Shown: one piece after another, positions 790 to 42,165 of the stretch
Layout of the letters: the number at the start of each line of letters is the position of its first letter
How positions within the stretch are numbered: position 1 is the stretch's first letter
IMG/VR virus record: IMGVR_UViG_3300017782_000047
Coordinates: 1-42,165 of that record
Direction: 5' to 3' (one strand)
From: a virus
Length of the DNA: 42,165 nt
Notes under the pieces: model-generated
Told to the model about the DNA's origin: nothing
The model's database searches: none
The model's input: only the letters and a program-made list of their open reading frames with translations
Translations under genes and position numbers: made by a program

Positions 790-794
790 ATAAT

Positions 795-2657: not shown

Positions 2658-2658
2658 G

Positions 2659-5766: not shown

Positions 5767-5778
5767 TAGGAAATAAAA

Positions 5779-7211: not shown

Positions 7212-7236
7212 TTAGTAAATATACAAGAGAGAACTT

Positions 7237-23569: not shown

Positions 23570-26500
23570 TTGGCCAGAAAGACAGACATTAGACTAAGGC
23601 GTTCTAATACAGAAAACGCTATACCAACTCACACCAATTTGAATGATGGCGAACTCGCCATGAACACCTATGACGGTGCTCTTTATTTCAAAAAATCTGA
23701 TAACACGATAATTACTGCACACGATAATACTATTTTACATCTTAATAGTAATACAAGTCGTGTCGGTATTGGAACAACATCTCCGGCCGGTAATCTTCAT
23801 GTCAAATCTGTAGGTGATGTCGGCGATGCTTTACTTATCGTTGAAGCAGATGCAGATAATAATGTTGAAGGCGATAATCCAAAAATTGAATTAAGACAGG
23901 ATTCTGGTTTTGTTACAGGCGCTATGTATTTAGAAGGTAATGCCGCCTCACAAGCAACTAACTCATTACAAAACGGTTTTTTACTAGACGCAAAAGGAGC
24001 CTCAAGCGATGGAGGCACAATACAATTTGCTACTGGTGGATTAGCCGCTAATCAAAGTGGCGGACCGACCAATAGTGCTGTGAGAATGACAATTCTACGG
24101 GACGGAAACATAGCCATTGGTCAAATCACATCTAGCCATAAACTTACAGTAGCAGGAAATACTTTCTTATCAGGCGATAACAGACATGTATATTTTGGTG
24201 GTAATAATACTTTTATTGGAGAAAATTCTAGTTCTAGTAAACTAGAATTAAGAGGCGGCGGGTCTAGCTCATCAGAAACAGTTTATGTCAATAGTAATGG
24301 AGCAGTCGGTATTGGGATAATTGCACCTACTGAAAAGCTTCATGTTGTTGGTAATGCAATTTTTCATTCTGGTGCGGCATACGGCGATTTAGTCGTTGGG
24401 CGTGGCTCCAACCAAGAAATTAAATTATACGTTAGTGACGCAAATACACAAATTATTGGATATCAGGATAGTGACAGTGATGGAAATCATTCTTTCGATA
24501 TAATCAGAGAATTTGATGGTGCTGGTGAAAATGATTTTACTATTAGAAAGGGGTCAGGATCAGTACAATTTGATATTAATAAAGATGGTAATATTACATT
24601 TAATAATGCATTTACTTTTCCAAATGCAGATGGACAAGCTGATCAGATATTAAAAACAAATGGAAGTGGTACCTTAACTTGGGCAAATGATTCTGGTGGT
24701 GGATCTTCAGTTAGTCTATCCGATAGTGATAACGACACTCTTATTCAAGTAGAAGAAAGCAATGACGAAGATATAATTAGATTTGATGTTGCGGGTTCTG
24801 AAGTTGCTCAAATGACTGACGACGGCCTTATATTGAATGATGGATATAATTTTGAAGGCGATGTTATTGGAGCTATTAAATTTAAGGCACAAGCTGGTGA
24901 AGCTTTAACAAAGGGTGATGTAGTTTATATATCTGGTATATCAGGTAATACAACAGTAGTATCAAAGGCAGATGCAAATGACGCTGCTAAAATGCCGGCG
25001 TTTGGATTAGCTGCAAGTACAGTAAGTTTAAATGCTGCGGTACAAATTGTCACATTTGGTACTTTACAAGGAATAGACACATCATCATATTCAGAAGGTG
25101 ATGAACTATACGTTAATGTATTAGCCGGCACACTCACAGATAGCGCTCCTACAGGTTCTAGCTCTGCGTTACAAAAAATAGCAAAGGTCACTCGATCAGA
25201 TGCAAGTGCTGGTTCAGTAAAAGTTTCAGGAGCTGGAAGAACAAACGCTACTCCTAATCTTGATGAAGGTAAGATATTTGTAGGTAATGCTTCTAATAAG
25301 TCTGTTCAAGGCGATGATACACTTCATGTTGATATGGCTAATAGCCGTGTTGGTATTAATAAAGCTTCTCCCGACCGTTCACTGCATATTGATGGAACTG
25401 TTAGAATCGACGGGGGAACAGGAGTAGTTTCGACTGGTGTTTTAGAAGTAATGCAAAATGGCGATACTGCCAATAACGCAATCGCTCTAACAAGCAGTAA
25501 TGCCGTTTCAACTAGGATATGGAAAAATGGTAGTGGAACATTTTTTATTGGATCGTCTAGTGCTAATAACGCTTTTCAACAATTAGTAAATGGCAATACT
25601 ACTATCAATGCTCAAGAGTTTACTATAGCACATGCCAACCCAACTCTTATATTAAAAGACACAACTGACGACGATGATCATAATATATTATTTAAAGACA
25701 GCTCCGATAATACTATTGCTAAAATAAGTACAGCTTTACCAGTAATGGATGATTTAAATATTGGTACTGTTACTGCTAGGGAATTTAATCTATTCACAAA
25801 TAACACCACCGCGATGTCAATCGACACATCTCAAAACTCAGTATTTGCAGGTGATGTTTCTATTTTAACCGGCACAAGCGCTAAGCAAGCTAGTGATATG
25901 TTATATATTGGCGGATCCGGTTTAGGTAGCACTGATGCAGCAATTTATCTAGGAAATGCCGGTGACGGAACTGGATATGGATGGAGATTTTTCTATAAAG
26001 GTTCTGGTGATGGTAATGAAAATAGATTAATTATTAGATCTGAAAATTCCGGATCGCCAGTCGATGCATTGTCGTTTACCCAAAATGGCCAGGCATTATT
26101 CGGCGATAGCATTGTAATGGGTAATAGTGAGAAGATATACTTCTTATCAAATGGTGACGCGAATACTGGATCATCGTATTGGTATAGAGCTGGTGGTAAT
26201 GCTACTAGATTGCTTTATAGAGATAATGTTTTAGTGTTTGATGCATATCAAGATCATTCTGCTGAATTTAGAAACTCTAACGATGATATTATATTTAAAG
26301 TCACTCCAAATGCAACTGCTACTAATAGTGCAACAATAGTTAGTAATGGTAACTTTTCTATCGCTAATGGAGCATTAAATATTGGAGGATCTGAGCTTTC
26401 TGACAATAATAGAAATGTAACAACTAATAATTTAACTGTTGGTGGTAATTTAACAGTTAATGGTTCTGTGACAACATTAAACACTGCCACGCTTACCGTT

Positions 26501-29500
26501 GATGATTTAAATATTACAATCGCTGATGGAGCCGCTAATGCAGCTGCCGCAAATGGTGCTGGAATTACGGTTGATGGTGCAAATGCTACAATTACATATA
26601 CATCAGCCCAAGATGAATGGAACTTTAATAAAAATGTAGTAATCGGCGGAAAGGACACAACTGCTTCTTTCCCACTTATGATAAGATCTGATTCTGCGCA
26701 TAAGGGACTTCATATAGAAGAAAATGCTGGCGCCGAAAGTTGGCAGATGGGCGTTAGTGTTACTGGCGATTTACACTTTTATAATTCTGGTTCTAATACT
26801 GCTTCTGTTACTTTTGAAGATAGTGGTGATGTTGGTATTGGGGTATCAGCACCAGGCCAAAAATTAGATGTTGCAGGTAATGTTCGAGTTACAAATAACG
26901 CAGCATTTATGGGAACAAATGTCGCTGGAAGTTCTAGGTCGCTTGTGCATTTGGGCAATGATAATATTCTAAGAATAAAGGGTAACGATTCAGAAGGTTC
27001 TGCTAATGTAATGTCTATGATTGCTGGCGGTAGTGTTGGTATTGGAACTACTGCGCCAATCGCTAAGCTTGATGTGAACGGAAGTATTAATGTAAAACAA
27101 GCTACTTCTATTGCATTAGCTCAAGACACTTCTAGTACTGTTGCTATTCTAATTCCTAGAGGTTTAAAAATTGCAAGTAATACCACAGGAGATTATATTA
27201 GAAATATAATTGAACACGGTGGTACGACCGGTAATGGTCCTATTAATATTGGCCAACAAGGAACGGCCATTATTACTGATATTAATTTATATCCTGGAAG
27301 TTCAGGAAAAATGCAGGTTTTCTCTGATGGAACTTCAACAGCTAAAGTTGTAATTGATTCCGCAGGTAAAATGAGCATAGGAAATAATAATCCAGAATAT
27401 AATCTTGATATTCGTGGCGATAGCCCAGTTTTAAGAATTGCCGATGACAATTTAAATAACGTAGAAGATGCTGCAGCAATTTGGTTTGGTGAAAATGATA
27501 CAAGTGAATCCAGAGGGGCTGGTATAACATATGACGGAGCTAATAACGCTTTACATTTTAGAACGAGTAATAACGGTGCAACTTTAACAGATCCATTTGA
27601 TTCAGAAAAACGTATGACAATACTTGAAACAAATGGTAATGTCGGAATAAACATAACAGACCCAGATGAAAAATTAGAAGTCAACGGATCTATTAAAGTA
27701 GACTACAGTAGCACAAATGCTAATATGTTTAAGCAAGGAAACGCTTTTGGTGGTGGGTCTATTACTCCTTTTAATAACAGTGGACATTTTGTTTTTAATG
27801 TAGAATATACAGCTGGAGATTCTGATTACATCTGGAGAGTAAACGATACAACTGAGCTGATGAGACTTGAAGAACAAGGACAGCTTGGTATCGGAACGAA
27901 TAACCCAACTGAAAGACTGCACGTATCTAATATAACCGGTGGTGAAACTAAAATACGAATCGATTCACTAGACAATGCTAGAAACAATTATATTGGTATT
28001 ACTGGACATGATAACTTAGTATTGTCTGCAGATGCTGGTCAAGAGGGCGCGGACAGTTCTATTAGATTTAATGTTGATAATGCAGAAGTTGGTAGATTTA
28101 CGCACCATGGCAGATTTGGAGTTGGAGGAATTATTCCAGCTACTACTTTAGAAATTTCTGATAGTGCGCCTAAACTAAGAATTACAGATACTAGAAATAT
28201 TTCATGGACCGTAGGTGATACTATGGCGTCAATTGAATTTGATAGTGACGATTCATCAGGTGGAGCAGGGACCTCAGCTGAGCCTAGAGCGGCAATTACA
28301 ATGTATGCGGCCAGCACTTTTGGTTCATCAACAGGCCTAGCCTTCTATACTAAGTCTGATACTACTGACTATCCAACTAGGCAAATGGTTATTACTAACG
28401 ACGGCAAGGTTGCTATCGGTACTTTAACAGCAAATGCTAAGCTTCATGTATCAGATGCGTCTGCACCAACATTTAGACTTTCAAGAACTGGCACAGGTCA
28501 AATTTGGCAACAGTCTATTGATTCAAGCGGTAGATTTCTTTTACAAGAAGGAGCAAGTGAAGGCGGTACAAAATATACTAGATTCGCAATAGATGATGAT
28601 GGAAACGTAGGTATCGGCACAGGTGATCCAGGAAGGAAATTGCACGTTGAAGGGGACAACAATACTGCTATAACTGTTGTATCACCAAATACAAACTATG
28701 CTCAATTAGCTTTAGGTGATACAGATGATGATAATTATGCTCAACTAATATTAGATAATGCTACTAATAAACTACAACTTCAAAATGGCGGCGGAGGAGT
28801 TGTAGGCGAAAGAGGAATTACATTAGATAGTTCAGAAAAAGTCGGTATTGGAACGTCTTCTCCAAGAGAAGAGCTGGAAGTTAATGGTACTATATTCGCA
28901 ACTCCGGCCAGCTATGCATCAAATCAGAATACGTATGTCTTAAAAGTAGGAGCTACTAATAATACTGCCTGGGATGGAATGGGCTTTAAGTTGAAGTCTT
29001 TATCTGGTGGATCGCCGTATCTAAGTGTTATGGGAAGTCCTTCTGTTGAAACAATGGTCTGGAAAAGCCAGCATGTAGGCATGGGAATTGCTGATCCATC
29101 TGTAAGCGGATCTAGAACTACTTTACACATTGATAATGTAAGTAACGGCTCAGCAATTAGACTATCACAAAATGACTCAGGGGCGTTATTTAGATATGAT
29201 ACGACTGCTGGCTTAAAAATAGGAACCATTTCTACTGAAAATTTAACACTTGAAACTGACGATGTCGCTAGGTTGGTAATTGCTGCAGATACCGGTAATG
29301 TTCTTATTGGCACTAATACAGTACAGCCTGAAAAGCTTTATGTAAATGGTGCTACAAGAATTGTCGGCCAAGGCAATACGCAACCTGCGTTTGAAGTATT
29401 TACTAGTCAAGATAATGACGCCACTGATGATTACAATGCTATGGTTATTGATTATAATGTTACCGGTAGCCAAACGATTGTTTCTGATGATACACTTCAT

Positions 29501-31378
29501 AAAGCTTTATTCATTGATGTAGATTCTACTGCAACCGGAGGCACCACAGCAGACGAGCATAGACTTTATGGAATGCATATTGATATAGATTTTAGTGGCG
29601 ATAGCGATATAGTTTACGGTTCTTTAGTTCAAGCCGAATCTAATACGACTGCTGGCCAGGTGACTAGTTTATATGGTGTTTACGGCCAGGCCGTAAACGA
29701 TACTTCAGGCACTGGTAAAGTACTAAACTCATATGGCGGATATTTTAATGCACAGTTTCAGCATAGCTCTACAAATACAACTAGAGATCAAAATATAATA
29801 GGTGCTTACGCACGTGCCGCAGTCGTAGCTTCAGCTGATGGCGGTGGAATGAATGATGTTACTGGCTTATTTGCTGAAGTTGAAATTGATGATATAGGCC
29901 AGGCCGGAGTAATGGATAATATATATGTTGTAAGAGCATATTATGACAATGATGATACAGCTAATAATTATCTGGATATGGGATCCACATATCTATTTCA
30001 TGGAACATACGCTGGCGGAATTCCTGCTAATGCAAATAGTGCTTATGGTATGTACATTAGCACTAATGTTAATAACTACTTATTGGGCTCTTTAGGAATT
30101 GGTATTCAAACAACCGGTCAGAGCTGGCCCTACAAATTAGACGTCCAAGGAGAAGCTAATAAAGCTGCAACTAGAATAAGAAATAATACTGTTACTAGCT
30201 CTGATTGGTGGTCAAATTCACAAGCTGCATTACTTATAGGAAATGTTGATACAAGCCAATCAGCTATACTAAAGTTTGATCGTGCATCAAGCAGAATCGT
30301 ATATGGTTCCAGCAGCACTGATGATAGATTAGTTTTCTCGTCACGTCATTCAACTTCAGCTAGTTCTGATCAAGTAGTATTTGACAATAACGGAAACGTA
30401 GGTTTAGGAACTACAGCTCCGGGTCAACAGCTTCATATTAAGAAAACTGTAACTGCTACAACAACTGCAGGTTTGGCTGGTATTAGATTGCAAAATGATG
30501 ATACAAATACTAATTCTAAAACTGGTATTGTATTTCAAAAAGCTAGGCCAACATCTGGAACTTCTACTTCATACTTGTATCAAGACTCATATAATGTGAC
30601 TATGGACTGCGATGAAGCATTCACTGTTAAGACTAACGGTAGTAATTCATTACACATAGCCGGAACAGGCCTCATCGGGATTAACAATCCTGGTCCAGAT
30701 TATAGACTGGATATTGGAAATCAATCGTCTCCATCTACTACTAACACTATAAGAATTGGACAGCAGAATAGTGGAACAGCAATTCGTATTGGTGCAGGTG
30801 GCGGCTCTTCAGATGTAGTACTACTCAGAGTTGATGGTGATAGTACTGATAATAAACATGATGGTACAACAGATGCTGGAGCATATGGATTTTCGCTAAA
30901 GTATATGGGCTCTAGATCAGGAAATGAAAATGCACTTGCGATCATGTCTGATAATGGCGGTAATGTTACTCAGGTAGAAGCATTGACGGTATTACAGGCC
31001 GGTGAAGTTGGAATATTTAATGCATCACCTAAAGCTAGATTCCAAGTAGAAGAATACGGAATTGATACAACAGAAACATCGTCTTCGGCTACTACTGAAA
31101 TTGCTATACACACTTTCCCAATTGCTGACTTTAGAAGCGCCAGGTTTACAGTTCAAGTTACTAATTCAACTGATAATACATATCACACAACTGAGTTATT
31201 GGCTTTACATGATGGAACAACTGCAAATATTACGGAGTTTGGAACAGTATTTACCGGATCAGCCATTGAAGCTCAGTTTGACGCGGACGTAAATTCTGGA
31301 AACTTTAGACTATTAGCAACTCCTTCTTCTACAGATAGCATGGAATTTAAAGTTGTATGTCATAGTTTGACAGTTTAA
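23570..31378 (+). CDS. Giant tail fibre protein with VGIGT repeats (TTG start)
   Basis: 2602 residues. The N-terminal KTDIRLRRSNTENAIPTHTN, then LNDGELAMNTYDGALYFKK, is the classic fibre attachment module. About 18-19 copies of a VGIGTTSPxxKLHVxG repeat follow. Residues about 438-566 are a distinct beta module (ALTKGDVVYISGISGNTTVV, then SSYSEGDELYVNVLAG) found in many marine phage structural proteins and resembling capsid-cement-type barrels. Residues about 956-1022 hold the NLTVGGNLTVNGSVTTLNTA module shared with the other fibres. Residues about 1977-2180 have YG-rich repeats (YGMHIDIDF, SLYGVYGQAV, NSYGGYFNAQF). The C-terminus (FPIADFRSARFTVQVTNSTD, then LLALHDGTTANITEFGTVFT) is a tip domain widespread in marine T4-like fibres. 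No S74 motif. Probably a side or long fibre contacting the host surface. Confidence 0.85.
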   Translation: MARKTDIRLRRSNTENAIPTHTNLNDGELAMNTYDGALYFKKSDNTIITAHDNTILHLNSNTSRVGIGTTSPAGNLHVKSVGDVGDALLIVEADADNNVEGDNPKIELRQDSGFVTGAMYLEGNAASQATNSLQNGFLLDAKGASSDGGTIQFATGGLAANQSGGPTNSAVRMTILRDGNIAIGQITSSHKLTVAGNTFLSGDNRHVYFGGNNTFIGENSSSSKLELRGGGSSSSETVYVNSNGAVGIGIIAPTEKLHVVGNAIFHSGAAYGDLVVGRGSNQEIKLYVSDANTQIIGYQDSDSDGNHSFDIIREFDGAGENDFTIRKGSGSVQFDINKDGNITFNNAFTFPNADGQADQILKTNGSGTLTWANDSGGGSSVSLSDSDNDTLIQVEESNDEDIIRFDVAGSEVAQMTDDGLILNDGYNFEGDVIGAIKFKAQAGEALTKGDVVYISGISGNTTVVSKADANDAAKMPAFGLAASTVSLNAAVQIVTFGTLQGIDTSSYSEGDELYVNVLAGTLTDSAPTGSSSALQKIAKVTRSDASAGSVKVSGAGRTNATPNLDEGKIFVGNASNKSVQGDDTLHVDMANSRVGINKASPDRSLHIDGTVRIDGGTGVVSTGVLEVMQNGDTANNAIALTSSNAVSTRIWKNGSGTFFIGSSSANNAFQQLVNGNTTINAQEFTIAHANPTLILKDTTDDDDHNILFKDSSDNTIAKISTALPVMDDLNIGTVTAREFNLFTNNTTAMSIDTSQNSVFAGDVSILTGTSAKQASDMLYIGGSGLGSTDAAIYLGNAGDGTGYGWRFFYKGSGDGNENRLIIRSENSGSPVDALSFTQNGQALFGDSIVMGNSEKIYFLSNGDANTGSSYWYRAGGNATRLLYRDNVLVFDAYQDHSAEFRNSNDDIIFKVTPNATATNSATIVSNGNFSIANGALNIGGSELSDNNRNVTTNNLTVGGNLTVNGSVTTLNTATLTVDDLNITIADGAANAAAANGAGITVDGANATITYTSAQDEWNFNKNVVIGGKDTTASFPLMIRSDSAHKGLHIEENAGAESWQMGVSVTGDLHFYNSGSNTASVTFEDSGDVGIGVSAPGQKLDVAGNVRVTNNAAFMGTNVAGSSRSLVHLGNDNILRIKGNDSEGSANVMSMIAGGSVGIGTTAPIAKLDVNGSINVKQATSIALAQDTSSTVAILIPRGLKIASNTTGDYIRNIIEHGGTTGNGPINIGQQGTAIITDINLYPGSSGKMQVFSDGTSTAKVVIDSAGKMSIGNNNPEYNLDIRGDSPVLRIADDNLNNVEDAAAIWFGENDTSESRGAGITYDGANNALHFRTSNNGATLTDPFDSEKRMTILETNGNVGINITDPDEKLEVNGSIKVDYSSTNANMFKQGNAFGGGSITPFNNSGHFVFNVEYTAGDSDYIWRVNDTTELMRLEEQGQLGIGTNNPTERLHVSNITGGETKIRIDSLDNARNNYIGITGHDNLVLSADAGQEGADSSIRFNVDNAEVGRFTHHGRFGVGGIIPATTLEISDSAPKLRITDTRNISWTVGDTMASIEFDSDDSSGGAGTSAEPRAAITMYAASTFGSSTGLAFYTKSDTTDYPTRQMVITNDGKVAIGTLTANAKLHVSDASAPTFRLSRTGTGQIWQQSIDSSGRFLLQEGASEGGTKYTRFAIDDDGNVGIGTGDPGRKLHVEGDNNTAITVVSPNTNYAQLALGDTDDDNYAQLILDNATNKLQLQNGGGGVVGERGITLDSSEKVGIGTSSPREELEVNGTIFATPASYASNQNTYVLKVGATNNTAWDGMGFKLKSLSGGSPYLSVMGSPSVETMVWKSQHVGMGIADPSVSGSRTTLHIDNVSNGSAIRLSQNDSGALFRYDTTAGLKIGTISTENLTLETDDVARLVIAADTGNVLIGTNTVQPEKLYVNGATRIVGQGNTQPAFEVFTSQDNDATDDYNAMVIDYNVTGSQTIVSDDTLHKALFIDVDSTATGGTTADEHRLYGMHIDIDFSGDSDIVYGSLVQAESNTTAGQVTSLYGVYGQAVNDTSGTGKVLNSYGGYFNAQFQHSSTNTTRDQNIIGAYARAAVVASADGGGMNDVTGLFAEVEIDDIGQAGVMDNIYVVRAYYDNDDTANNYLDMGSTYLFHGTYAGGIPANANSAYGMYISTNVNNYLLGSLGIGIQTTGQSWPYKLDVQGEANKAATRIRNNTVTSSDWWSNSQAALLIGNVDTSQSAILKFDRASSRIVYGSSSTDDRLVFSSRHSTSASSDQVVFDNNGNVGLGTTAPGQQLHIKKTVTATTTAGLAGIRLQNDDTNTNSKTGIVFQKARPTSGTSTSYLYQDSYNVTMDCDEAFTVKTNGSNSLHIAGTGLIGINNPGPDYRLDIGNQSSPSTTNTIRIGQQNSGTAIRIGAGGGSSDVVLLRVDGDSTDNKHDGTTDAGAYGFSLKYMGSRSGNENALAIMSDNGGNVTQVEALTVLQAGEVGIFNASPKARFQVEEYGIDTTETSSSATTEIAIHTFPIADFRSARFTVQVTNSTDNTYHTTELLALHDGTTANITEFGTVFTGSAIEAQFDADVNSGNFRLLATPSSTDSMEFKVVCHSLTV
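23755..31055 (+). repeat. VGIGTTSPxxKLHVxG repeat series in the 2602-residue fibre
   Basis: About 18-19 degenerate copies, for example VGIGTTSPAGNLHV, VGIGTTAPIAKLDV, VGIGTGDPGRKLHV, VGIGTSSPREELEV, VGLGTTAPGQQLHI and IGINNPGPDYRLDI. Each is spaced by roughly 50-250 residues of other beta-rich sequence. Repeat type is known in long phage fibres and adhesins. Confidence 0.85.
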
Positions 31379-31429: not shown

Positions 31430-34400
31430 ATGGCAACAGATCATAACTTTAAGGTCAAAAACGGCCTTGCCGTAGAAGGCGCAGATTTAAAAATAACCGG
31501 GGACGGAAACGATACTCGAATAGAATCAGGTGGAGAAATCAGATTTCGACCTGAAGGTTCTTCATCGAATAAAGTCAGAATTACGTTAAACGAACTTGAA
31601 GTCTCAGGTTCCATTGACGCATCTGCAGATCTAAAAACAAATAACACAACTCGTATTAATTCTTCCGGAGGCTTTACTCTAGGCAGTGGATCCATGACTG
31701 GTCCGGTTACAATTTCACCTCCAAGTGGACAAAATACCGTATTAAATCTAAACGGAGCATTAGATACGTTCTTAGAAAAGGACACTGGTAGCCACTTTTA
31801 TATTGCTAATAATGTTGAAGATAAAGACATAAAATTTAGAATTAATAACGGTGGAACTCAAAAAATTCCATTAACAATACACGGACAATCTGGCACAGTA
31901 GATTTAACTGGCGATTTAGATGTGTCTGGAGATCTCGCAGTTTCCGGCGATTTAAATATTACAGGTGATATCAATTCAGTTAGCACTACTGATTTGGATA
32001 TTACAGATAAGACTATTACATTATCAAAGGGATCAACTAGTTCTTCAACCTCTGATGGCGCAGGTATTATTATTGAAGGTCCGTCACCTGCACCTGAACT
32101 AAAATACCAACATTCGAATGCCAGATGGACGTTAAATAAAGAAGTATTTACTCCGTCAGGATTTATGATTGGTACAACATCTACTGATGTTGGATTGATG
32201 AGAAATAGTTCAGGCGTATTTGATTTCCAAGCTCAATCAGGTCGTGAAATTTCATTTAGTAATGCTACTAATGGTGAACATGTAAGAATTGATGCTGACG
32301 GCAAAGTTGGTATCGGAACAGATAACCCAGGTGTTAATTTACAAATTAATGATAGTACTACTACTCAAACTAATTCCGAATTTAGAATTTACGGATATGA
32401 TACGGGAACTAGTGATGCAAAATATGGTAGAATTTTTATTGATAGTGGCGGTAATTTAAATGTTGCGGCTCAGGATAGTTATTTAATATTGACCTCAGGA
32501 AATTATATCCAAGCAAATGATACGCTCTACGCATTAGAATCTATATTAATGCGCAACAACAAAAAGATTCAGATGGCTGGTAGTGATGGTGGCTTTAATG
32601 GAGTAATGAATGTTAGCACAAGTGACGTCGTTCAAGTTGGAGGTGTTAGTGGTTGGGGTGGTACAATTGGCCAGCTAGCTCTTTATAGTAATGATGGCGA
32701 AGCTGTTCGTATAGATGAAAATCAATGGGTCGGAATAGGAACTAATGATCCATCTAGAAAGCTTCATGTTTATCAGAACAATGGAACTAATGTAGTTGCA
32801 GCATTTGAGTCAAACGACGCGCAAGTGTGGATTGATTTACGTGACTCTAATAGCACTAGTTATGGCGGAAGTGCTTATGGATGTTTACTGGGTCATGATC
32901 CTGTTAACGATCATTTGTTTATAGTTGCTGACGGCAACGTAACTAAACATTTTGTAGTAGATAATACAGGAAATGTTGGTATAGGAACTAGCGACCCTAA
33001 AACAGATTTGCACGTATTAGGAGCTTCGGGAAATGCTCAAGCTACAACTGTCCGATTAGGCGGCGATGGCGCAAATGGAAATCATACTCCTAAGCTAGAA
33101 TTTACAGAAGGTACAACCGGCACAAGCATGAATTTTGGATTTTCGCTTTTAGCCGATGGCAATAGCAGTAATAATTTCCTTATAAGGAATCATAATAGTA
33201 GCACTGGCGGAGCTGTTGCAATTTGTGTTGACCGTGCAACAGGATTTGTTGGAATAGGAAATAATTCGGGATCACCTAAGTCCAGGCTTGATATTAACTC
33301 AAGTGGAGATAATTTTGTATATTTAAATTATACAAGAAGTACTGGTGGAACAAATGAAAAGTATTGGAGATCTGGAATTGAAACAAATCACAGGTTTGCA
33401 ATTGGTAAAGTTAACGACGCATATAATAGCTTATCCGAGTATCTAACAATACTTAGTGGTGGTAATGTTGGTATTGGCATTAATAATCCATCTGAAAAAT
33501 TAGAAGTCAATGGAAATATAAAGGCTGATACATTAAAAATCGATAATATAGTATTTGAAGATGAAGATGGATCTCCTACTGATAGTATTACCGCATCTAC
33601 GGAATGGGATGGAACAAATTCAACACTTTCATTCGAAGGTTCGGCTGGACAATTATTTGCCATTAGTAATAACTTAACTGGAACTATATTCTCTGTAAAT
33701 GACATTTCAGGTATTCCAAGTATTGAAGTTGAAGATGACGGAGAAATTCGTTTTGCTGAGTTTGGTGGATATGTAAAAATCGGACATGACTCATCAGTTC
33801 CCGGCCAAGAAGCGCCTCTCATCGTAACTAAAACACAGGGAACTTTACCACCGGCTCCAGACACTCCAAGTAAAAACGTTGCAGTGTTTCAAAATAATTC
33901 AACTGCCGGAGAATATTCAATTATTTCGATTATTGGTGGTAATACCGGTAGATCATCTATTCATTTAGGTGATACTGATGACGATAATGCTGGAGCTATA
34001 TACTATACACATAACGATAACAAATTACATTTTAGAACTAATAGTTCCGGTGATGATGTTCAAATAGAAAGTGATGGCACGTTAAATATTTCAACCGGTG
34101 ATTTACGTTTAGGCGTTGGTAAAAAGTTTTATATGGGCGGTAGTAATCATACATATATCAGCGAAGACATCGATGACAGATTACGATTCTTCACTGGTGG
34201 CCAAGAGTTTATGAGATTCACTGAGGCTGGAACAGACACAGTAAACTTCTACACGCCAGTTTCTTCATCAGGTACTATTACCGCTCCGGCTCTAAACGGT
34301 ACGGATAGTACAAATAATGTCGGGTTTAATATTGCAACAGACAGCACTAGTAACGGTAGAGCATTTATAATTTTAGATAGTGATTCAACCGATGGCGTTG

Positions 34401-37400
34401 GAGTTGGAAGTGATTATACGTATATTGGTTCAGATTATGCTTCCTTTAGAGGCTGGGTAAGTGCCGGACAAAATGGTGCTTCAGGCGGCGTAAGGGTTTC
34501 TGACGGAAGTGGCACAGCTCCTACATTGTCATTTGCTGATAGAACTGACACTGGTTTATGGGCTCAAGATTATAGTACCGGCGAAGACAGAGTAATGATA
34601 AGTACTGGAGGTTCTATTAGAGCTGAGGTTCAAAGTGCGGGTGTTTATTCATATGCAAATGTATATGCTGTTAATGAGTTTAGAAATATTACTAATACCT
34701 GGAAAGCAACTACGTCTCAAGTTTCCCAAGATTTTCAGTTTATAGGTAACACAAGCAATACTCCTGTGACAATAATGCATTTAGATACCGGCAACGCAAA
34801 CGTTGGTATTGGCACGACTAGTACAGATTCTACGTATAAACTTCAAATTGCTGGAGCTCAGCGTACTACAGTTACTGGTTCTAACACGGTGGCCGGTTGG
34901 TTTGAAAATACAGACGATCATGATTATAATATTAGAATTGTACCAAAGCTTTCATCGGGAGGTTATAATCCAATAACTTCTACTGGAGACTCTGGAATAA
35001 TTTTCTCAACCGATAACGACCATACTAATGCTGTTGATAATAATGGATTAATTATTGCGCCACATAGTGATGAAAAAGGTGGGTTGTATATTGCGGAAAG
35101 CGGTAACGTTGGTATTAATGTAAGAAATACTGGGTCTCAGGCTTTATGGGTAGAAATTCCAACTGCGCAGCAAAGTGATACAAATCTAGTAGCATATTTT
35201 AAATCTCACAATAATAAAGCGTGTATTCAAATTACAGATAATGATACAACTGCAGTTGTATCAGCTGAAGGCACTAGGATGTCTTTAGGTGGTCAACAAG
35301 GTGTTCATGCAAATAACGTAAATATTAACACTTCAAATGCAAATACAGGAATAGGTATTATTACTGGTAGTGATGGTGATTTAAGCTTAAATGTGCCGCG
35401 GCTTCATGTAAAAGCTGATACTCAGCAGGGTGTTAATGCGTTAGTCGCTAGATTTGAAGCTGGTAATGATAATGATAATACCGGCGCAGCAATTCTCATC
35501 AACCATTCAAATGATAGAGGATTGTTAATTGAAGGCGGTAGATCTAACTCGGATAGAGCAATAGCACATTTGGGTCTTGTCACTTCAGGTGGTGATCACA
35601 ATCGCGTTTTGACAATTAGACAAGACGGAAGTAATTACTGGGCAGGTATTGGCACAGAAGTTCCTGAAGCGCTTTTACACGTAAAGGCTGCTAGTGGAAC
35701 TACAGCAACTATAAGAATCGAAGGCGGCAGCAACACTGTTTCTGCAAGCGGCGAAATAAATTCTCAACTTGACTTTGGTTCAAATGATGGTTCTGTAAAC
35801 AGCGCTGGCCAAGTTGGAGGTAGAATAGCAAGTGTTACCGAAAATACAAACGGCGCTTACACTGGAATGGCGTTTTATACCTTCACACAAAGCGGGTCTC
35901 CTGATTTAGCTGAGAAAATGCGAATCAGGTACGATGGTAGTGTTGGAATTGGAGAGGCCTCTCCAACAACTGGAAAGCTTGTAGTAAATGGTAATACTAA
36001 TCAGTATACACTTAGACTAAATGGTGGAACTTCATCCGGAACTAGCTATGGTGCTAGGATACGTGCCGGAACTAATACTTCTGATTATGGATTAATAGTT
36101 GAAAATACAAGCGCGGGCCCGCAGTTTGCTGTTAGAGGTGATGGCCATGTAGGTATTGGAACTAATGACCCTATCGATCAATTTCATTTAAAAAGTTCCA
36201 GTGGTGATGCAAGGATGGTTCTTGAATCTCCAGTAGATTCCGATTGTGAAATTAAACTTTCAGAGAATGGAACGGTAAAATTCACTGTTGGATTTAATGC
36301 AGCAGATGATACATTTAGAATAGGAACTACTAACGTAGACACAAACCCAAGGATGGCTATCACTTCGGCCGGTAAAGTTGGATTTGGTAGAGAAAATCCG
36401 CATAATAAATTTCATGTAATTGGCGATGGACGTTTTGAAGGAAACCTAATGACGGGAAGTGCCTCGTATACTAACGTTCCCGCTAAGGCAATTCATATTA
36501 AAGATAGTGGCGATAACGCATGTCTAAGAATAGAAGACTCTACTGGCAGTAATAAAGTTTATGATTTTAGAGTAAATACTGGAGCTGGTTTAAAAATTAT
36601 TGACCAAGGGACAGTAGGAACGGGGAATAACGTAAGATTTAGAATTGAAGACGATGGTAAGGTTGGTATTGGCAACTTCCCAACAACTAATAACAATTCT
36701 AATAATCATGATTCAATTGCTCCTGCGGCAAGGCTTCACGTATATGATACTGGTGGCGGTGGAACAGAAAAGCCATTAATGATATTAGAAAATTATATCG
36801 GCGATCATGGTACTACACCTTCTAAAGTAAGTATTGATATAAGAAACCAAGACAGTAATAATAATCCTAACAGAGTATCATTAAAAAATGTCACCGTCAA
36901 TTCTACGACTTATGGAGTAAACGATGAAGCTGCTGCTCACTTTGTTATTGGACTAAGTAAAGGTGGAAATGTTATAGAAAGAGCAATGTTCCATGCTGAC
37001 GGTCATATGTCTATTGGTACTTCAATGTTTAATCCGTATACTCACGTGAACACCGGATCTTACTTTAAACCAAAAACAAATGTAACTAGTAATAGAACTT
37101 TATCAATCGGGGGTGGTGATGCAGGCGCTGATATTAGTTTAGTTTCTAGTACTACATCTGATGATGGACACGTTGGTGGATTATTTTTTACTTCTACTGC
37201 TGGTGCAACTGATGCGCATAAACAATTAGCCGGTATAGATTGTGTATATGATAAACATGCAACTAGTGACGCGGTAAGTGGTGGTCATTTAAGATTCTTT
37301 ACTAAACCTACTGGATCTGGTATTAATAGTCCAAGAATGTGGATACACCAAAATGGTAATATCTACATGAAAAATCAGAGTGGTTCAGATGTGGTAGCAT

Positions 37401-38008
37401 TTGATGCACAAAACTCTAGATTTAACTGTGATTGGTTTGGTGGTTATCAATATGCAGCCAATTCGTTCCTAGATTTTGATAATGACTCACCTGGTAGTAG
37501 TGGAACTAATGGTGTTCATTTGGCGTCAGTTGCTGGTATGGACTTTACTATTGACTCAAATAACAATGGGTCCGTTGATGAATTTACCTGGCGCGTCAAC
37601 TCGCCTACAGCGTCAACCGGTACTGAGTTGATGAGCTTAGACAGCGACGGTGATTTAACAGTTACTGGAGCTCTTGCCGCAACAACAAAATCATTTGATA
37701 TTGAGCATCCAACAAAAGAGGGTAAGAGATTACATCATGGTGTTCTTGAAGGACCCGAGCATGCAGTATATATTAGAGGAAAAACAAAAGAATCAATCAT
37801 TCAATTGCCTGAATATTGGAATGGGCTAGTTCATGAAGATACTATAACTGTTCAGCTTACAGCAATTGGCCGGTCAGAATATCTTTATGTCGACGGCATT
37901 AAAGATAACACTGTAAGTATTTCTAATGACACTGAATATTTTTACTTTATACAAGCCGAGCGTAAAGATGTCGAAAGGTTTGAGGTAGAATATGACGACG
38001 TCGACTAA
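31430..38008 (+). CDS. Giant tail fibre protein with VGIGT repeats, second copy type
   Basis: 2192 residues. The N-terminal TDHNFKVKNGLAVEGADLKI is a fibre start module seen in marine phages. Residues about 169-240 carry the shared module (VSGDLNITGDINSVSTTDLD, then DGAGIIIEG). About 13-14 VGIGT-type repeats follow (VGIGTNDPSRKLHV, VGIGINNPSEKLEV, VGIGTNDPIDQFHL and others). The last about 107 residues are a distinct C-terminal domain: KSFDIEHPTKEGKRLHHGVL, then EGPEHAVYIRG and LPEYWNGLVHEDTITVQLTA. This domain type recurs at fibre ends and in large-virus structural proteins, and is different from the ends of the other two giants. No S74 dyad is seen. The gene overlaps the first lectin-like gene by 17 nt. 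Confidence 0.85.
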   Translation: MATDHNFKVKNGLAVEGADLKITGDGNDTRIESGGEIRFRPEGSSSNKVRITLNELEVSGSIDASADLKTNNTTRINSSGGFTLGSGSMTGPVTISPPSGQNTVLNLNGALDTFLEKDTGSHFYIANNVEDKDIKFRINNGGTQKIPLTIHGQSGTVDLTGDLDVSGDLAVSGDLNITGDINSVSTTDLDITDKTITLSKGSTSSSTSDGAGIIIEGPSPAPELKYQHSNARWTLNKEVFTPSGFMIGTTSTDVGLMRNSSGVFDFQAQSGREISFSNATNGEHVRIDADGKVGIGTDNPGVNLQINDSTTTQTNSEFRIYGYDTGTSDAKYGRIFIDSGGNLNVAAQDSYLILTSGNYIQANDTLYALESILMRNNKKIQMAGSDGGFNGVMNVSTSDVVQVGGVSGWGGTIGQLALYSNDGEAVRIDENQWVGIGTNDPSRKLHVYQNNGTNVVAAFESNDAQVWIDLRDSNSTSYGGSAYGCLLGHDPVNDHLFIVADGNVTKHFVVDNTGNVGIGTSDPKTDLHVLGASGNAQATTVRLGGDGANGNHTPKLEFTEGTTGTSMNFGFSLLADGNSSNNFLIRNHNSSTGGAVAICVDRATGFVGIGNNSGSPKSRLDINSSGDNFVYLNYTRSTGGTNEKYWRSGIETNHRFAIGKVNDAYNSLSEYLTILSGGNVGIGINNPSEKLEVNGNIKADTLKIDNIVFEDEDGSPTDSITASTEWDGTNSTLSFEGSAGQLFAISNNLTGTIFSVNDISGIPSIEVEDDGEIRFAEFGGYVKIGHDSSVPGQEAPLIVTKTQGTLPPAPDTPSKNVAVFQNNSTAGEYSIISIIGGNTGRSSIHLGDTDDDNAGAIYYTHNDNKLHFRTNSSGDDVQIESDGTLNISTGDLRLGVGKKFYMGGSNHTYISEDIDDRLRFFTGGQEFMRFTEAGTDTVNFYTPVSSSGTITAPALNGTDSTNNVGFNIATDSTSNGRAFIILDSDSTDGVGVGSDYTYIGSDYASFRGWVSAGQNGASGGVRVSDGSGTAPTLSFADRTDTGLWAQDYSTGEDRVMISTGGSIRAEVQSAGVYSYANVYAVNEFRNITNTWKATTSQVSQDFQFIGNTSNTPVTIMHLDTGNANVGIGTTSTDSTYKLQIAGAQRTTVTGSNTVAGWFENTDDHDYNIRIVPKLSSGGYNPITSTGDSGIIFSTDNDHTNAVDNNGLIIAPHSDEKGGLYIAESGNVGINVRNTGSQALWVEIPTAQQSDTNLVAYFKSHNNKACIQITDNDTTAVVSAEGTRMSLGGQQGVHANNVNINTSNANTGIGIITGSDGDLSLNVPRLHVKADTQQGVNALVARFEAGNDNDNTGAAILINHSNDRGLLIEGGRSNSDRAIAHLGLVTSGGDHNRVLTIRQDGSNYWAGIGTEVPEALLHVKAASGTTATIRIEGGSNTVSASGEINSQLDFGSNDGSVNSAGQVGGRIASVTENTNGAYTGMAFYTFTQSGSPDLAEKMRIRYDGSVGIGEASPTTGKLVVNGNTNQYTLRLNGGTSSGTSYGARIRAGTNTSDYGLIVENTSAGPQFAVRGDGHVGIGTNDPIDQFHLKSSSGDARMVLESPVDSDCEIKLSENGTVKFTVGFNAADDTFRIGTTNVDTNPRMAITSAGKVGFGRENPHNKFHVIGDGRFEGNLMTGSASYTNVPAKAIHIKDSGDNACLRIEDSTGSNKVYDFRVNTGAGLKIIDQGTVGTGNNVRFRIEDDGKVGIGNFPTTNNNSNNHDSIAPAARLHVYDTGGGGTEKPLMILENYIGDHGTTPSKVSIDIRNQDSNNNPNRVSLKNVTVNSTTYGVNDEAAAHFVIGLSKGGNVIERAMFHADGHMSIGTSMFNPYTHVNTGSYFKPKTNVTSNRTLSIGGGDAGADISLVSSTTSDDGHVGGLFFTSTAGATDAHKQLAGIDCVYDKHATSDAVSGGHLRFFTKPTGSGINSPRMWIHQNGNIYMKNQSGSDVVAFDAQNSRFNCDWFGGYQYAANSFLDFDNDSPGSSGTNGVHLASVAGMDFTIDSNNNGSVDEFTWRVNSPTASTGTELMSLDSDGDLTVTGALAATTKSFDIEHPTKEGKRLHHGVLEGPEHAVYIRGKTKESIIQLPEYWNGLVHEDTITVQLTAIGRSEYLYVDGIKDNTVSISNDTEYFYFIQAERKDVERFEVEYDDVD
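32300..37055 (+). repeat. VGIGT repeat series in the 2192-residue fibre
   Basis: About 13-14 degenerate copies of the same repeat type as in the preceding giant fibre, from VGIGTDNPGVNLQI to MSIGTSMFNPYTHV. The protein-level pattern is shared but the copies are not close DNA duplicates. Confidence 0.8.
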
Positions 38009-39269
38009 TCAAAAAATAGTTACCAGGGGATTAAAATACGCCTGGGATATGAATAATAAAAAGTCGTGGAAAGGTAAACCGACTACTAACTTATTAAGTA
38101 ATCCTGATTTTAGTAATGGAACTACTGGCTGGACTCTAACTTCAAGGTCGTCATCGACACACAACGATACTATGGAAATTAGATACGAGCCTAATGGTAC
38201 ACCGTATCTTAACATGCATTTGGAAAGAACTTCCGGCAGCGGGAATAGTTGGTCTCACTTAAGACAAGGCTCTGTATTCTCCTCGACTGGAAATTATGCA
38301 ACTTCAGGACAATTTAGAGTTAATGCGTATTCGGTATCTAGTGGGAGCACATTGTCACAGTTTAGAGGGTCCGCCTTTTATAATGATTGGTGGTCAGCAA
38401 ATAGACCTATTAGAAATATATCTGCAAGTGATATAGGTCAGGGATGGTTGGATTTAGAATTAAATAGAGATTACGTGTCCTCATATACTGATAGTAACGG
38501 AACAGTTTATAATTTAGATGGGTGTTTTGAATTTTATACTGGAAGTATGCCAGCCGTTGGAGATCTTATTGATATCGATATAAGATTAATTCAAATAGAG
38601 TCAGGCACTTTTGCCACGCCTTTTGTGAATGGCACTAGAACGAATACGAACTCATTACGCGATATGACTTCTAGTAATACTCTTACACTAAGCGCGCTTA
38701 CATATAATTCTGACGGGACTTTTGAGTTTGATCAAAGCGCTTCAAATAGAATTACATCTGATAAACTTATGAGAACTCTTATGGATAGTGTAGACACTTA
38801 TACGTATTCATGTGTTATAAAAAGAACAGCGTCTATGCCTGACGGTCACGGGATTGCTTTAGGACTTCAAGGATATAACTGTGGTATTCTTTTAAAGAAC
38901 GATGGTATTATTGCAAGTAATTGGTATAATAATGGGTCGGGGTATTCTGTTAAACAAAGCGGAACTGCAACTTTAGCAAATAACACTTGGGCCCATGCGA
39001 CTATGACTTGGAATTGTAGAGAAAACATGAAGCTGTATATTAATGGCGAACTAACACATACTGTATCGGTTTCTGCTCAAACTGGTAGTAGCAATAATGA
39101 ATGGTATGGAGTAACGTCTGCACACAGTAATCCAATAATGGCTGGCGGTGGTTCGAGTCATTGGGAAACAAATTCTGTAATAAAAGAAGCTCAGGTGTAT
39201 GATAGAGAGTTAAGTGCAGAAGAAGTAAAACAAAATTTTATTGCGGTGAGAGGTAAATACGGTCTATGA
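37992..39269 (+). CDS. LamG/concanavalin-like lectin-type virion protein, first of three
   Basis: 425 residues. The N-terminus (LKYAWDMNNKKSWKGKPTTN) begins a LamG-like pattern, which is then interrupted by a jelly-roll segment (LLSNPDFSNGTTGWTLTS, through IDIDIRLIQIESGTFATPFV) typical of carbohydrate-binding-like modules. After TNTNSLRDMTSSN the LamG fold resumes, residues about 244-425: FEFDQSASNRITSDKLM, NNTWAHATMTWNCRENMKLYI, NGELTHTV, and the end VYDRELSAEEVKQNF. LamG/Laminin_G_3 domains bind glycans or surface polymers. The gene overlaps the upstream fibre by 17 nt and the next gene by ATGA, so all are probably translated together. Likely a receptor-binding tip or decoration; no catalytic motif seen. 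Confidence 0.78.
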   Translation: MTTSTNQKIVTRGLKYAWDMNNKKSWKGKPTTNLLSNPDFSNGTTGWTLTSRSSSTHNDTMEIRYEPNGTPYLNMHLERTSGSGNSWSHLRQGSVFSSTGNYATSGQFRVNAYSVSSGSTLSQFRGSAFYNDWWSANRPIRNISASDIGQGWLDLELNRDYVSSYTDSNGTVYNLDGCFEFYTGSMPAVGDLIDIDIRLIQIESGTFATPFVNGTRTNTNSLRDMTSSNTLTLSALTYNSDGTFEFDQSASNRITSDKLMRTLMDSVDTYTYSCVIKRTASMPDGHGIALGLQGYNCGILLKNDGIIASNWYNNGSGYSVKQSGTATLANNTWAHATMTWNCRENMKLYINGELTHTVSVSAQTGSSNNEWYGVTSAHSNPIMAGGGSSHWETNSVIKEAQVYDRELSAEEVKQNFIAVRGKYGL

Positions 39270-40402
39270 TTTCTCATAACAGCAAAATTACTCTTGATGG
39301 TTTAGAACTATATTGTGACGCAACAAATCCTAAAAGTTTTGAAGGTGAGGCTACTACAAATCTATCAAATACTTCGGCCGGAGTAAAGGATTGGACTATC
39401 GGCAATCTTGTGGCAAGTGTTTCTTTATCTACGGTTACAACTAATAGCGTATATAGGATTACTAGTGGGTCTACGGCTGGGGCTTTTAGATTTTATTTTA
39501 ATGTTAGTAATTTAACGGACGGTGAAACGTATACTATGAGTTTTAGAAATAAAATTATCAGTTCAACTGGTGGAGTAACTCCTAATTTTACTCCTACAGA
39601 TTGGAACGATCAATCTATAACAAAGACACAAACGTTAAATAACGATCATTGGTATCATACCGCAACTGGTTCAAGAAGTACATATACAAATACGTATAGA
39701 TTTATGGATTTTTATATTACTGCAAATACAGTAGTTGAGATATACGACGTTCAATTAGAAGAAAAAGATCATGCTACGCCGTACGTGGCGTATCAGAGAA
39801 ATACATGGAAGGACTTGACTAAAAACGGTTATGATTTAAATTTTGTCAGTGGAACTCCGGAGTATTCATCTACTAATAACGCGGTGTCCTTTAGAAGCGC
39901 TGATACAGAATATAGTACGGCAACTATTGACAAAGGAATACTAAAAGCTACTAACGAACTTGGAGAGTGGTCGTTAGAATGTCTATTTAAACAAATAAGT
40001 GATTCTAATGCCAATGAAGCCGTAATTATAGGAAGAAGCGGACATCACGGCGGAATATTAGTTCAGACAAATCATATACGCCATCAAATAAGAACTGTTG
40101 ATGGTAGTACAGGACAGTTATCTGAATCGGCTGGAAACATGACAAATGGAAATTGGTATCATAGCGTTATGACATATGAAAATGGTTTAGTAAATTCGTA
40201 TTTAAATGGCGTATTAGTTTCTTCCGATCAGTTCGACAAAAATACTTATAATATACGCGCGTACGATAACACCTTATATGTTGGAGGTATTAGTGGTAGA
40301 TATCCTAATATTGATTTATCGCTAGTTAGGGCTTACTCTAAAGCTTTAAATAGCTCTGAAGTTCTTACTAATTATCACGCGACAAAGGGAAGAATGATAT
40401 GA
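39266..40402 (+). CDS. LamG/concanavalin-like lectin-type virion protein, second of three
   Basis: 378 residues, a divergent paralogue of its neighbours. It shares the N-terminal pattern GLELYCDATNPKSFEGEATTN, an internal beta segment ending DVQLEEKDHATPYVAYQRNT (compare QIESGTFATPFV in the first copy), then WKDLTKNGYDLNFVSG. The LamG part is residues about 206-378: AVSFRSADTEYSTATI, GEWSLECLFKQ, NGNWYHSVMTYENGLVNSYL, NGVLVSSDQF, and LSLVRAYSKALNSSEVLTNY at the end. The central jelly-roll is shorter than in copies one and three. Coupled on both sides by ATGA overlaps. Function as a glycan-binding adsorption factor is inferred. Confidence 0.77.
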   Translation: MISHNSKITLDGLELYCDATNPKSFEGEATTNLSNTSAGVKDWTIGNLVASVSLSTVTTNSVYRITSGSTAGAFRFYFNVSNLTDGETYTMSFRNKIISSTGGVTPNFTPTDWNDQSITKTQTLNNDHWYHTATGSRSTYTNTYRFMDFYITANTVVEIYDVQLEEKDHATPYVAYQRNTWKDLTKNGYDLNFVSGTPEYSSTNNAVSFRSADTEYSTATIDKGILKATNELGEWSLECLFKQISDSNANEAVIIGRSGHHGGILVQTNHIRHQIRTVDGSTGQLSESAGNMTNGNWYHSVMTYENGLVNSYLNGVLVSSDQFDKNTYNIRAYDNTLYVGGISGRYPNIDLSLVRAYSKALNSSEVLTNYHATKGRMI

Positions 40403-41736
40403 GTTTATTAGTTGCCATTGATGCCTATAATCCGTCTAGCTGGAAGGGTAGACCTACTAACAATTATTTAGCTACTTCTACTTGGGGCCAGGCCAATAGT
40501 GTTGGAAGATCTGACAAAAAGCCTTTTGCCAGTAATAGCCACTCTGCTAGTGGTCAGTTGGCTTCTGATGCAAACTGGTATGTTGGTCCAATTATAAACA
40601 TTCCAGAATTGCCTGTTGAAGATTGTAATATATTTTATGTGGAAGATAGTAATCCAGACAATTATTCTAGATGGAGCCCCCACGCTGGGTTTGACATTGA
40701 CGAATTAGATACACTAGATGTTACTCACGTTTTAAGTTGTTATGTTTATATACCTCCAGGAACAACGGTAGGTAATAGCACATTTTCTACGGTCACGCAA
40801 AATAGCACAGGTGCGGATTGGCATACACAAAATTCAACCGCTTCTTCGGCAGTATATAATAGCCAATATAATTATTGGAATTTTACCGCAGATATAAATC
40901 AAACTGAGGTACTGGCAAACACTAGCACTCGTGGTTCATGGCAACGAATACACGTTCCTTTTGTTCCTAAAAGCACTATTAGAGATCAGGAAAGTGATAG
41001 TCCTAGGATAGATAAACTAGGCGGATATTTAAGGCCTAATTTAGTAGGACAGTCTAACTATAATTATCTGTACATTGCAGCCAGTCAGCTAGAAGAAGGT
41101 AGCTTGCCTAGTCCGTACATTAGAGGCGAAAGATCTAATACAGAATCTATATTAGATTTGTCTTCTTATAAGCGAACGGTTACTGCTACATCATTAACAT
41201 ATGGATCCAATGGCAAATGGGAATTCACGAATACGTCAAACGATAAAATAACAATAGATAATAACAACGATCTACATCCAGATGGAGACTTTTCAGTTGA
41301 GTGGTGGTTTTATTGCGATTCTTCTCAAAATAATCCATATCCAAGAGTTTTTGATAAAACCAATCCGTTATGCCATATAGGACAGACGTTTCCTACTTAT
41401 GTAGCATTTAATAAAACAATTGCCGGAAGCACGTTAAGACAAACAACTGCTTCAAGTCCTATTAATCACAGCACTTGGTACCATATAGCATTTACATATA
41501 ATGGTAGATACGCAAAAATATATATTGATGGAGTATTAGTCGTAGATAAAGACTGGACCACTGTAGAATATTTAAGCTCAGGTGGAATTGGGACTGATAT
41601 GACTATTGGTGGAAACAGCGGAACAAGCAGAAGTTTTAATGGTAAGATAGAGATGTTTAAATTCTATAAGGATGAGATATTATCAGCCGCTGAAGTAAAA
41701 CAAAGTTATTTAAGAGGAAGAGGGAGATACCTATAA
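40399..41736 (+). CDS. LamG/concanavalin-like lectin-type virion protein, third of three
   Basis: 445 residues. The N-terminus LLVAIDAYNPSSWKGRPTNN parallels SWKGKPTTN of the first copy. A long inserted beta segment ends AASQLEEGSLPSPYIRGERS, then NTESILDLSSYKRTVTA. The LamG domain spans residues about 273-445: WEFTNTSNDKITIDNNNDLH, DFSVEWWFYCDSSQNNPYPR, HSTWYHIAFTYNGRYAKIYI, DGVLVVDKDW, DMTIGGNSGTSRSFNGKIEM, and the end AAEVKQSYLRGRGRYL. EVKQ-F/Y is shared with copy one (AEEVKQNFIAVRGKYGL), so copies one and three are the closer pair at their C-termini. Last gene of the coupled cassette. Confidence 0.78.
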   Translation: MSLLVAIDAYNPSSWKGRPTNNYLATSTWGQANSVGRSDKKPFASNSHSASGQLASDANWYVGPIINIPELPVEDCNIFYVEDSNPDNYSRWSPHAGFDIDELDTLDVTHVLSCYVYIPPGTTVGNSTFSTVTQNSTGADWHTQNSTASSAVYNSQYNYWNFTADINQTEVLANTSTRGSWQRIHVPFVPKSTIRDQESDSPRIDKLGGYLRPNLVGQSNYNYLYIAASQLEEGSLPSPYIRGERSNTESILDLSSYKRTVTATSLTYGSNGKWEFTNTSNDKITIDNNNDLHPDGDFSVEWWFYCDSSQNNPYPRVFDKTNPLCHIGQTFPTYVAFNKTIAGSTLRQTTASSPINHSTWYHIAFTYNGRYAKIYIDGVLVVDKDWTTVEYLSSGGIGTDMTIGGNSGTSRSFNGKIEMFKFYKDEILSAAEVKQSYLRGRGRYL

Positions 41737-41751: not shown

Positions 41752-41946
41752 ATGCAAGCTAATTTTAAGTATAATAAATCAACTGGAGAACTTACAATCG
41801 TAGATAAAGATGGTGAGGAAATGTCAGTACACGCAGAAATTACATCTGATACACCGACTAGAGTATTGTTTTATGTGCAATGCGACGTCGAAGATGATTT
41901 TAGTTTATATCCATATTTAGAACCAGGAGTTGACGATGGCGACTAG
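41752..41946 (+). CDS. Small acidic protein of unknown function
   Basis: 64 residues, not assigned to a family. It opens NFKYNKSTGELTIVDKDGEE, a short beta pattern, and ends with an acidic stretch (CDVEDDFSLYPYLEPGVDDGD). It overlaps the next gene by 11 nt, so the two are likely co-expressed from the late promoter directly upstream. The only clear ribosome-site-like sequence, AAGG, lies 13 nt before the ATG and overlaps the promoter. Presumed virion or fibre accessory protein because of position only. Confidence 0.62.
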   Translation: MQANFKYNKSTGELTIVDKDGEEMSVHAEITSDTPTRVLFYVQCDVEDDFSLYPYLEPGVDDGD

Positions 41947-42165
41947 AACATCATCCCAGTCAGGAAATTTTAATTCTACCTCAACTTGGGGAGGCTCTGC
42001 AGTTCCCGTAGATGGAGATCAATTTGTGGTTTCTGCCGGTCATATAGTAACCGTTAGCGATGATCGCAGAACTACTAACGGTTATCATGATTCTACGTGT
42101 TATGGAAAGCTTCATATTACTGGTTCTGGCAAAATACGAATGAACGGCAATTTTACAGTTGATCA
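41936..42165 (+). CDS. Beta-rich virion structural protein, N-terminal part (cut by window end)
   Basis: The frame from ATG 41936 runs open to the window end (76 codons). The start is MATRTSSQSGNFNSTSTWGG, then AVPVDGDQFVVSAGHIVTVS, then KLHITGSGKIRMNGNF. The pattern W-G-G-x-x-P-x-x-G-D-x-hydrophobic-x-x-x-A/G-H-x-V-T is found at the start of G8-like and parallel beta-helix proteins of phages and secreted bacterial proteins. The start overlaps the upstream gene by 11 nt. Probably another fibre or decoration protein; full length and domains lie outside the window. Confidence 0.68.
   Translation, partial: MATRTSSQSGNFNSTSTWGGSAVPVDGDQFVVSAGHIVTVSDDRRTTNGYHDSTCYGKLHITGSGKIRMNGNFTVD

Follow-up and report, generated by a model that had tools for sequence, protein, structure and literature searches.

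Three consecutive genes of a T4-like phage probably encode glycan-binding adhesion proteins of the tail or baseplate, in each of which a jelly-roll of the carbohydrate-binding-module (CBM) type is nested within a LamG domain and which would be used as portable, swapped units. The host domain would be a LamG (concanavalin-type) jelly-roll, broken after its first strand (GLxxxxDxxNxxSxxG) and before the segment that comes next (xxDLSGN), and the insert would itself be a CBM-type jelly-roll, so that one small protein would offer two sugar-binding-type folds. Each gene may act as a unit with a conserved start and end that carries the ribosome-binding site of the next gene in its C-terminal codons. 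Units and inserts would be gained, lost and swapped by phages in rows of one to nine genes, and this swapping probably tunes attachment to host-surface polysaccharides.

The window, that is the whole stretch of DNA analysed (42,165 nucleotides), is a viral contig of 42 kb; it comes from an environmental metagenome and belongs to a T4-like phage that is also present in an 83,652-bp IMG/VR contig. T4-like markers were giant tail-fibre genes, baseplate wedge genes (265-7203) and, on the 83,652-bp contig, gp23; the nearest isolates of the gp6-type wedge protein were Pelagibacter and Methylophilales phages (~41% identity). No close relative at the DNA level was found among phage records, and scans of viral contigs with single proteins returned only the same phage in the longer contig. 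Rfam gave 0 matches in the window and no tandem repeats were found in the cassette. The cassette lies within the T4-like structural cluster, directly downstream of a 2192-aa tail-fibre ORF (Table 1), inside whose end ORF1 starts by 17 nt and not via an ATGA. Two giant tail-fibre genes lie further upstream at 12702-21194 (2830 aa, with a C-terminal endosialidase-type chaperone domain, Peptidase_S74) and 23570-31378 (2602 aa). Past the cassette, positions 41930-42165, running on in locus L005 (7179-9737), encode an 852-aa protein with a start that looks G8- or beta-helix-like by eye and a weak match to a capsule-lyase rider domain, a possible tailspike.

The presence of three LamG-type ORFs here was borne out by the ORF calls and by matches to Laminin_G_3 (PF13385; cut-off 27.6 bits) of 53.2, 43.8 and 69.0 bits for ORF1, ORF2 and ORF3, respectively; nothing in their N-terminal halves scored above the Pfam cut-offs. 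Sialidase and neurotoxin receptor-binding domain identities were rejected, as these Pfam scores were below cut-off and reflect only the shared LamG fold. All three proteins have in common an opening, a segment end and a closing RG-type motif. The openings quoted in the first-pass annotation were located, but their order is MNNKKSWKGKPTTN (ORF1), NPKSFEGEATTN (ORF2) and YNPSSWKGRPTNN (ORF3). Its motif for the segment end, QxExGxxxxPYV/PFV, is present and slightly too strict, because the ends read QIESGTFATPFV in ORF1, QLEEKDHATPYV (without the Gly) in ORF2 and QLEEGSLPSPYI (Ile, not Val) in ORF3. The ORFs had also been called related but diverged, in agreement with BLASTP among the three (24-30% pairwise identity; E-values 7e-12, 1e-15 and 8e-8), which indicates that they are homologous, old paralogues. 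A recent triplication was ruled out by this identity and by the lack of any supported sister grouping on the tree.

Table 1. Coordinates of the cassette, its parts and its junctions in the window.
Feature	Coordinates	Strand	Evidence
2192-aa tail-fibre protein	31430..38008	+	ORF; phrog_9942, phrog_18345; last 17 nt overlap ORF1
GAGG, Shine-Dalgarno-like, ahead of ORF1	37982..37985	+	sequence
ORF1, 425 aa	37992..39269	+	ORF; Laminin_G_3
ORF1 putative LamG opening, residues 1-29 (first strand 14-19)	37992..38078	+	opening-segment model 6.7 bits; strand in model
ORF1 inserted CBM-like jelly-roll (predicted), residues 30-214	38079..38633	+	model pLDDT 82, pTM 0.80; PDB matches
ORF1 LamG body, residues 215-425	38634..39266	+	PF13385 53 bits; uninserted-form profile from position 28
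GAGG, Shine-Dalgarno-like, in ORF1 C-terminal Arg-Gly codons	39250..39253	+	junction survey
ATGA start/stop overlap ORF1/ORF2	39266..39269	+	sequence
ORF2, 378 aa	39266..40402	+	ORF; Laminin_G_3
ORF2 putative LamG opening, residues 1-28	39266..39349	+	12.0 bits by opening-segment model, higher than any of 3200 shuffles
ORF2 insert, residues 29-175	39350..39790	+	alignment with common insert type
ORF2 LamG body, residues 176-378	39791..40399	+	PF13385 44 bits; profile match from position 31
AAGGG, Shine-Dalgarno-like, in ORF2 C-terminal codons	40385..40389	+	sequence, junction survey
ATGA start/stop overlap ORF2/ORF3	40399..40402	+	sequence
ORF3, 445 aa	40399..41736	+	ORF; Laminin_G_3
ORF3 short putative LamG opening, residues 1-18	40399..40452	+	paired with ORF1 opening by BLASTP, E 0.001
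ORF3 longer insert, residues 19-242	40453..41124	+	both ends align with common type, middle diverged
ORF3 LamG body, residues 243-445	41125..41733	+	PF13385 69 bits; profile match from position 32

Structure models were computed for the whole chain of ORF1 and for its insert alone. The isolated insert (32 aligned sequences) gave a compact all-beta domain of the CBM type, the result of the structure prediction that the first-pass annotation had proposed as a check, here for ORF1 only. Its best PDB match was the Tuc2009 baseplate tripod (5e7t, TM-score 0.60), followed among CBMs by CBM4 (0.53), CBM16 (0.49) and CBM22 (0.49), with CBM27 also matched (range 0.44-0.53); phage tail-fibre and tailspike domains were matched as well. 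A search of PDB with the insert profile returned phage proteins, namely the RcGTA head-spike fibre (E-value 9e-9), baseplate proteins (6e-6) and the Tuc2009 minor structural protein (1e-4), together with CBM22 (5e-4) and the CBM-type laminarinase module 1gui (6e-4). The ORF1 insert is thus predicted to be a CBM4/16/22/27-type jelly-roll. We call it CBM-like and not a member of CBM_4_9 (PF02018), because ORF1-ORF3 gave no match to that family (cut-off 25.9 bits) and the best insert of a relative reached 19.9 bits. The inserts of ORF2 and ORF3 align with the ORF1 type at both ends. The whole-chain model of ORF1 (pLDDT 76, pTM 0.75; about 90 pLDDT for strand 14-19) matched, from end to end, proteins of comparable length from uncultured phages (TM-score 0.67), and its PDB matches span about half of the chain.

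Relatives were gathered from several dozen viral contigs by an alignment search and three DNA-pattern searches. Genes with a single LamG fell into two size classes, short (200-290 aa) and long (370-520 aa), with the LamG body starting at residue 4-70 (near 25) or 170-313, respectively, and none in between. Short forms carry GLVLCLDAGNPRSYPGTGTNWFDVSGNNNTGAL uninterrupted; long forms carry GLVFAYDMDNAAKSFKGKP, then about 130-280 residues, then ATPFVNGTRSNTQALLDMS. The opening and the LamG body are 147-224 residues apart in ORF1-ORF3. Uninserted LamG genes (51 intact) occur in related phage loci, often adjoining inserted ones, and the carrier, with or without insert, is widespread in phage contigs and not special to this phage. 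Copy number and divergence, which the first-pass annotation had proposed comparing among related phages, gave rows of one to nine LamG genes with short and long forms mixed and the insert state varying; the longest rows were in L043 (nine), L069 (nine), L061 (eight) and L067 (eight). The nine-gene row of L043 spans 1400-9688, and that of L069 is on the reverse strand, adjoining a tail-fibre C terminus. A tree of LamG bodies requires 24 changes of the inserted state (36 with shuffled labels), at least eight of these changes being forced by starred branches; the tree is a quick one with long branches, which makes the count rough. A single origin of the insert was therefore not supported, and the insert has been gained or lost repeatedly.

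These data bear on whether ORF1-ORF3 could instead be structural adaptors, proteins for assembly or decoration by which tail fibres or other baseplate parts are held, with no binding of glycans. The genes lie between tail-fibre genes, the family they match (phrog_8510) is labelled virion structural protein, and jelly-roll domains are often structural parts of phage baseplates. Against a fixed role of this kind, a copy number of one to nine and an insert that is repeatedly gained, lost or replaced would be unusual, and by structure the insert is most closely related to host-binding modules; we consider the adaptor role unlikely. We infer a virion location, glycan binding and a role in attachment for ORF1-ORF3, which most likely serve the tail or baseplate as accessory adhesion proteins. 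The LamG-CBM unit looks like a portable, swappable adhesion module: portable because its inserted state changes at least eight times and other domains use the same site, and swappable, and no peculiarity of this phage, because it is found in many phages, with the insert or lacking it, in rows that reach nine genes.

The same relatives served as controls for the nesting. A profile was built from short forms only and run on both size classes: it matched 51 short proteins from position 1-8 (5 others, truncated by a locus edge, are without their starts), and in 56 of 56 long proteins, ORF1-ORF3 included, its main match began at position 23-77, mostly 28-35. The missing first positions of the profile were usually found at the N terminus of the long proteins, ahead of the insert. 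A second model, covering the first 30 residues and trained on uninserted relatives only, placed at the N terminus in 30 of 32 long proteins. Shuffled proteins (3200) reached no more than 8.3 bits with this model, a value exceeded by 24 of the 32; ORF2 scored above every shuffle and ORF1 above all but two. The shorter opening of ORF3 was undetected by the model and is paired with that of ORF1 by BLASTP. Together, the profile starts and the N-terminal opening matches indicate that the insert breaks the LamG chain at a single site, with the ORF3 opening as the weakest case, and strand 14-19 of ORF1 would pack on the LamG body.

Were the two domains instead simply sequential, a CBM-like domain would precede a LamG lacking its first strand and the N-terminal segment would be a leader or assembly peptide. 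Laminin_G_3 matches the body only, as this arrangement would have it, and the packing of the first strand in the LamG sheet is deduced from sequence. In the uninserted paralogues, however, the segment is contiguous with the body and the flanks of the insert join exactly there; a leader would be unlikely to keep GLxxxxD...SY...G, nor would several unrelated inserts be expected to part it from the body at a single site, which makes the sequential arrangement quite improbable. The first-pass annotation, which had read each LamG as split at the same place by an inserted domain of the carbohydrate-binding type, was right on the cassette and very probably right on the nesting, given the profiles, the opening model and the fold of the ORF1 insert. 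LamG and CBM folds bind carbohydrates in general, so that ORF1-ORF3 could be glycan binders without a role in virion attachment (for example secreted or surface lectins that block superinfection, or adhesion to particles or mucus); this is very improbable, as the genes sit in a baseplate and tail-fibre cluster and homologues in Flavobacterium phage immuto and S-PM2 are annotated as structural.

Other domains were found at the same LamG site. A second insert type of about 215 aa ends in PRxDxCDGxEPSI (in full PRxDxCDGxEPSIxELL); it was seen in L041, L043 (7164-8489), L055, L061 (8980-10317) and L069, and Pfam was blank for the one member scanned. A third type, with an end close to LHPKYWPD, is present in L042, L057 and L061 (3316-4554). 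In L069 (1688-3229, reverse strand) the CBM-like insert is replaced by a glycine-rich domain (PF21722, 56 bits, cut-off 24). In gp187 of Synechococcus phage S-H9-2 (L054, 4020-8570), 378 residues (about 947-1324) seemingly occupy the same site; this insert is repeat-like with the look of a beta-propeller by eye, confirmed by no tool. The LamG loop after the first strand may be a general docking site into which phages plug unrelated domains, shuffling whole carriers as cassettes, a tentative reading that we hold slightly less probable than its opposite. The plugged domains would be CBM-like, glycine-rich, at least two further unnamed ones and perhaps a propeller, and with the last codons of one carrier acting as the ribosome-binding site of the next, the whole would be a plug-in system for combinatorial adhesion sets.

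The ATGA overlaps said to join the cassette are present at both internal junctions. From them the first-pass annotation had taken equal production of the three proteins to be likely; the overlaps and the Shine-Dalgarno-like words suggest that translation of ORF1-ORF3 is coupled, and nothing more. The survey took in 34 distinct ATGA junctions, those of the window (39242-39269 and 40375-40402) among them and almost all the others from related loci. At 28 of the 34, a Shine-Dalgarno-like word was present within the final codons of the preceding gene (shuffled mean 10.9, maximum 19). Within the closing motif, glycine is encoded by GGA or GGG in 28 of 30 ATGA-junction genes compared with 48% elsewhere (p 2e-7), and by GGG in 17 of 30 compared with 9% elsewhere. 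As judged from codon choice, the RG-motif codons likely also provide the Shine-Dalgarno site for the LamG gene that follows; this dual role is likely and unproven because genes without the overlap share a similar, weaker bias. If true, it would make each LamG gene a portable cassette.

A scan of a genome collection identified a relative with 90% nucleotide identity over 6.5 kb, near to the whole cassette (L078, 2346-6090; FZLS01000034.1), on a contig binned with a Rhodobacteraceae genome. Genome bins often pick up phage contigs, so this is a weak hint at the host. The relative keeps ORF1-ORF3 all in frame, with dN/dS of 0.04-0.15 in every insert and body, and the ORFs are therefore real genes. 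The opening segments had zero amino-acid changes, and constraint was weakest on the ORF1 insert (p 0.001 versus all other domains pooled, a comparison chosen post hoc). Relative to this nearest relative, ORF1-ORF3 are under purifying and not diversifying selection. No match to a reverse transcriptase (RVT_1) was found in the 83-kb contig, which may be incomplete, and on this basis a target of a diversity-generating retroelement was rejected. An invertible tail-fibre cassette was likewise rejected, as the same contig had no match to a serine recombinase (Resolvase) and no inverted repeats flank the cassette, the only inverted match being one of 21 nt (81%) inside the genes. The earlier suggestion that three diverged binders may widen or switch host range is not supported here, in view of the absence of a recent duplication, of the reverse transcriptase and serine recombinase matches above, and the purifying selection.

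Receptor-binding sets of uncultured phages are mostly unannotated, and in domain libraries that model the LamG body only, neither the split opening nor the domain inserted after it comes to light. Beyond this cassette, the LamG carrier and its single insertion site prove to be a module common among phages, with and without insert in the same genomes. The carrier, its uninserted controls and a cultured relative make it testable whether attachment is built by adding and swapping sugar-binding modules. That relative, Flavobacterium phage immuto (an isolate), has LamG genes in tandem beside tail-fibre genes, as in the cassette: gp051 and gp050 are short and annotated as structural, and gp049 is long. 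It differs in host and phage group, and two of its three genes lack the insert.

Laminin G3 domains have been described on tail fibres and virions of jumbo phages (PMC7824862). These and the LamG domains matched in cyanophages share the LamG fold on virion proteins, with no description there of a LamG split by an insert or of rows of small genes. The RcGTA head-spike fibre Rcc01080, the top sequence-profile match of the insert in PDB, binds capsular polysaccharide (PMC10218006); unlike ORF1-ORF3 it is located on the capsid, without a match to a LamG body. BppA of lactococcal phage Tuc2009 (5e7t), the best structural match of the ORF1 insert, is an accessory baseplate protein that raises host-binding specificity or affinity (PMC7291167); its CBM is joined to a titin-like domain, whereas here the CBM-like domain is nested in LamG. 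A comparable arrangement is that of evolved Dit proteins of the adhesion device, in which a CBM jelly-roll, often of the BppA kind, is inserted in a loop of the galectin-type domain, in siphophages of lactobacillus and in 936-group lactococcal and streptococcal phages, and absent in some relatives (PMC7291167, PMC6669499). No Dit family was among the Pfam or PHROG matches of ORF1-ORF3, and we found no paper on CBM-in-LamG nesting in the open-access literature searched. Both systems place a CBM-type jelly-roll inside another beta-sandwich domain, present or absent among relatives; the receiver is the galectin domain of Dit in one and LamG, in small tandem proteins of a T4-like phage, in the other. 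Insertion of a CBM into a phage fold is therefore known from evolved Dit, and the LamG version is new.
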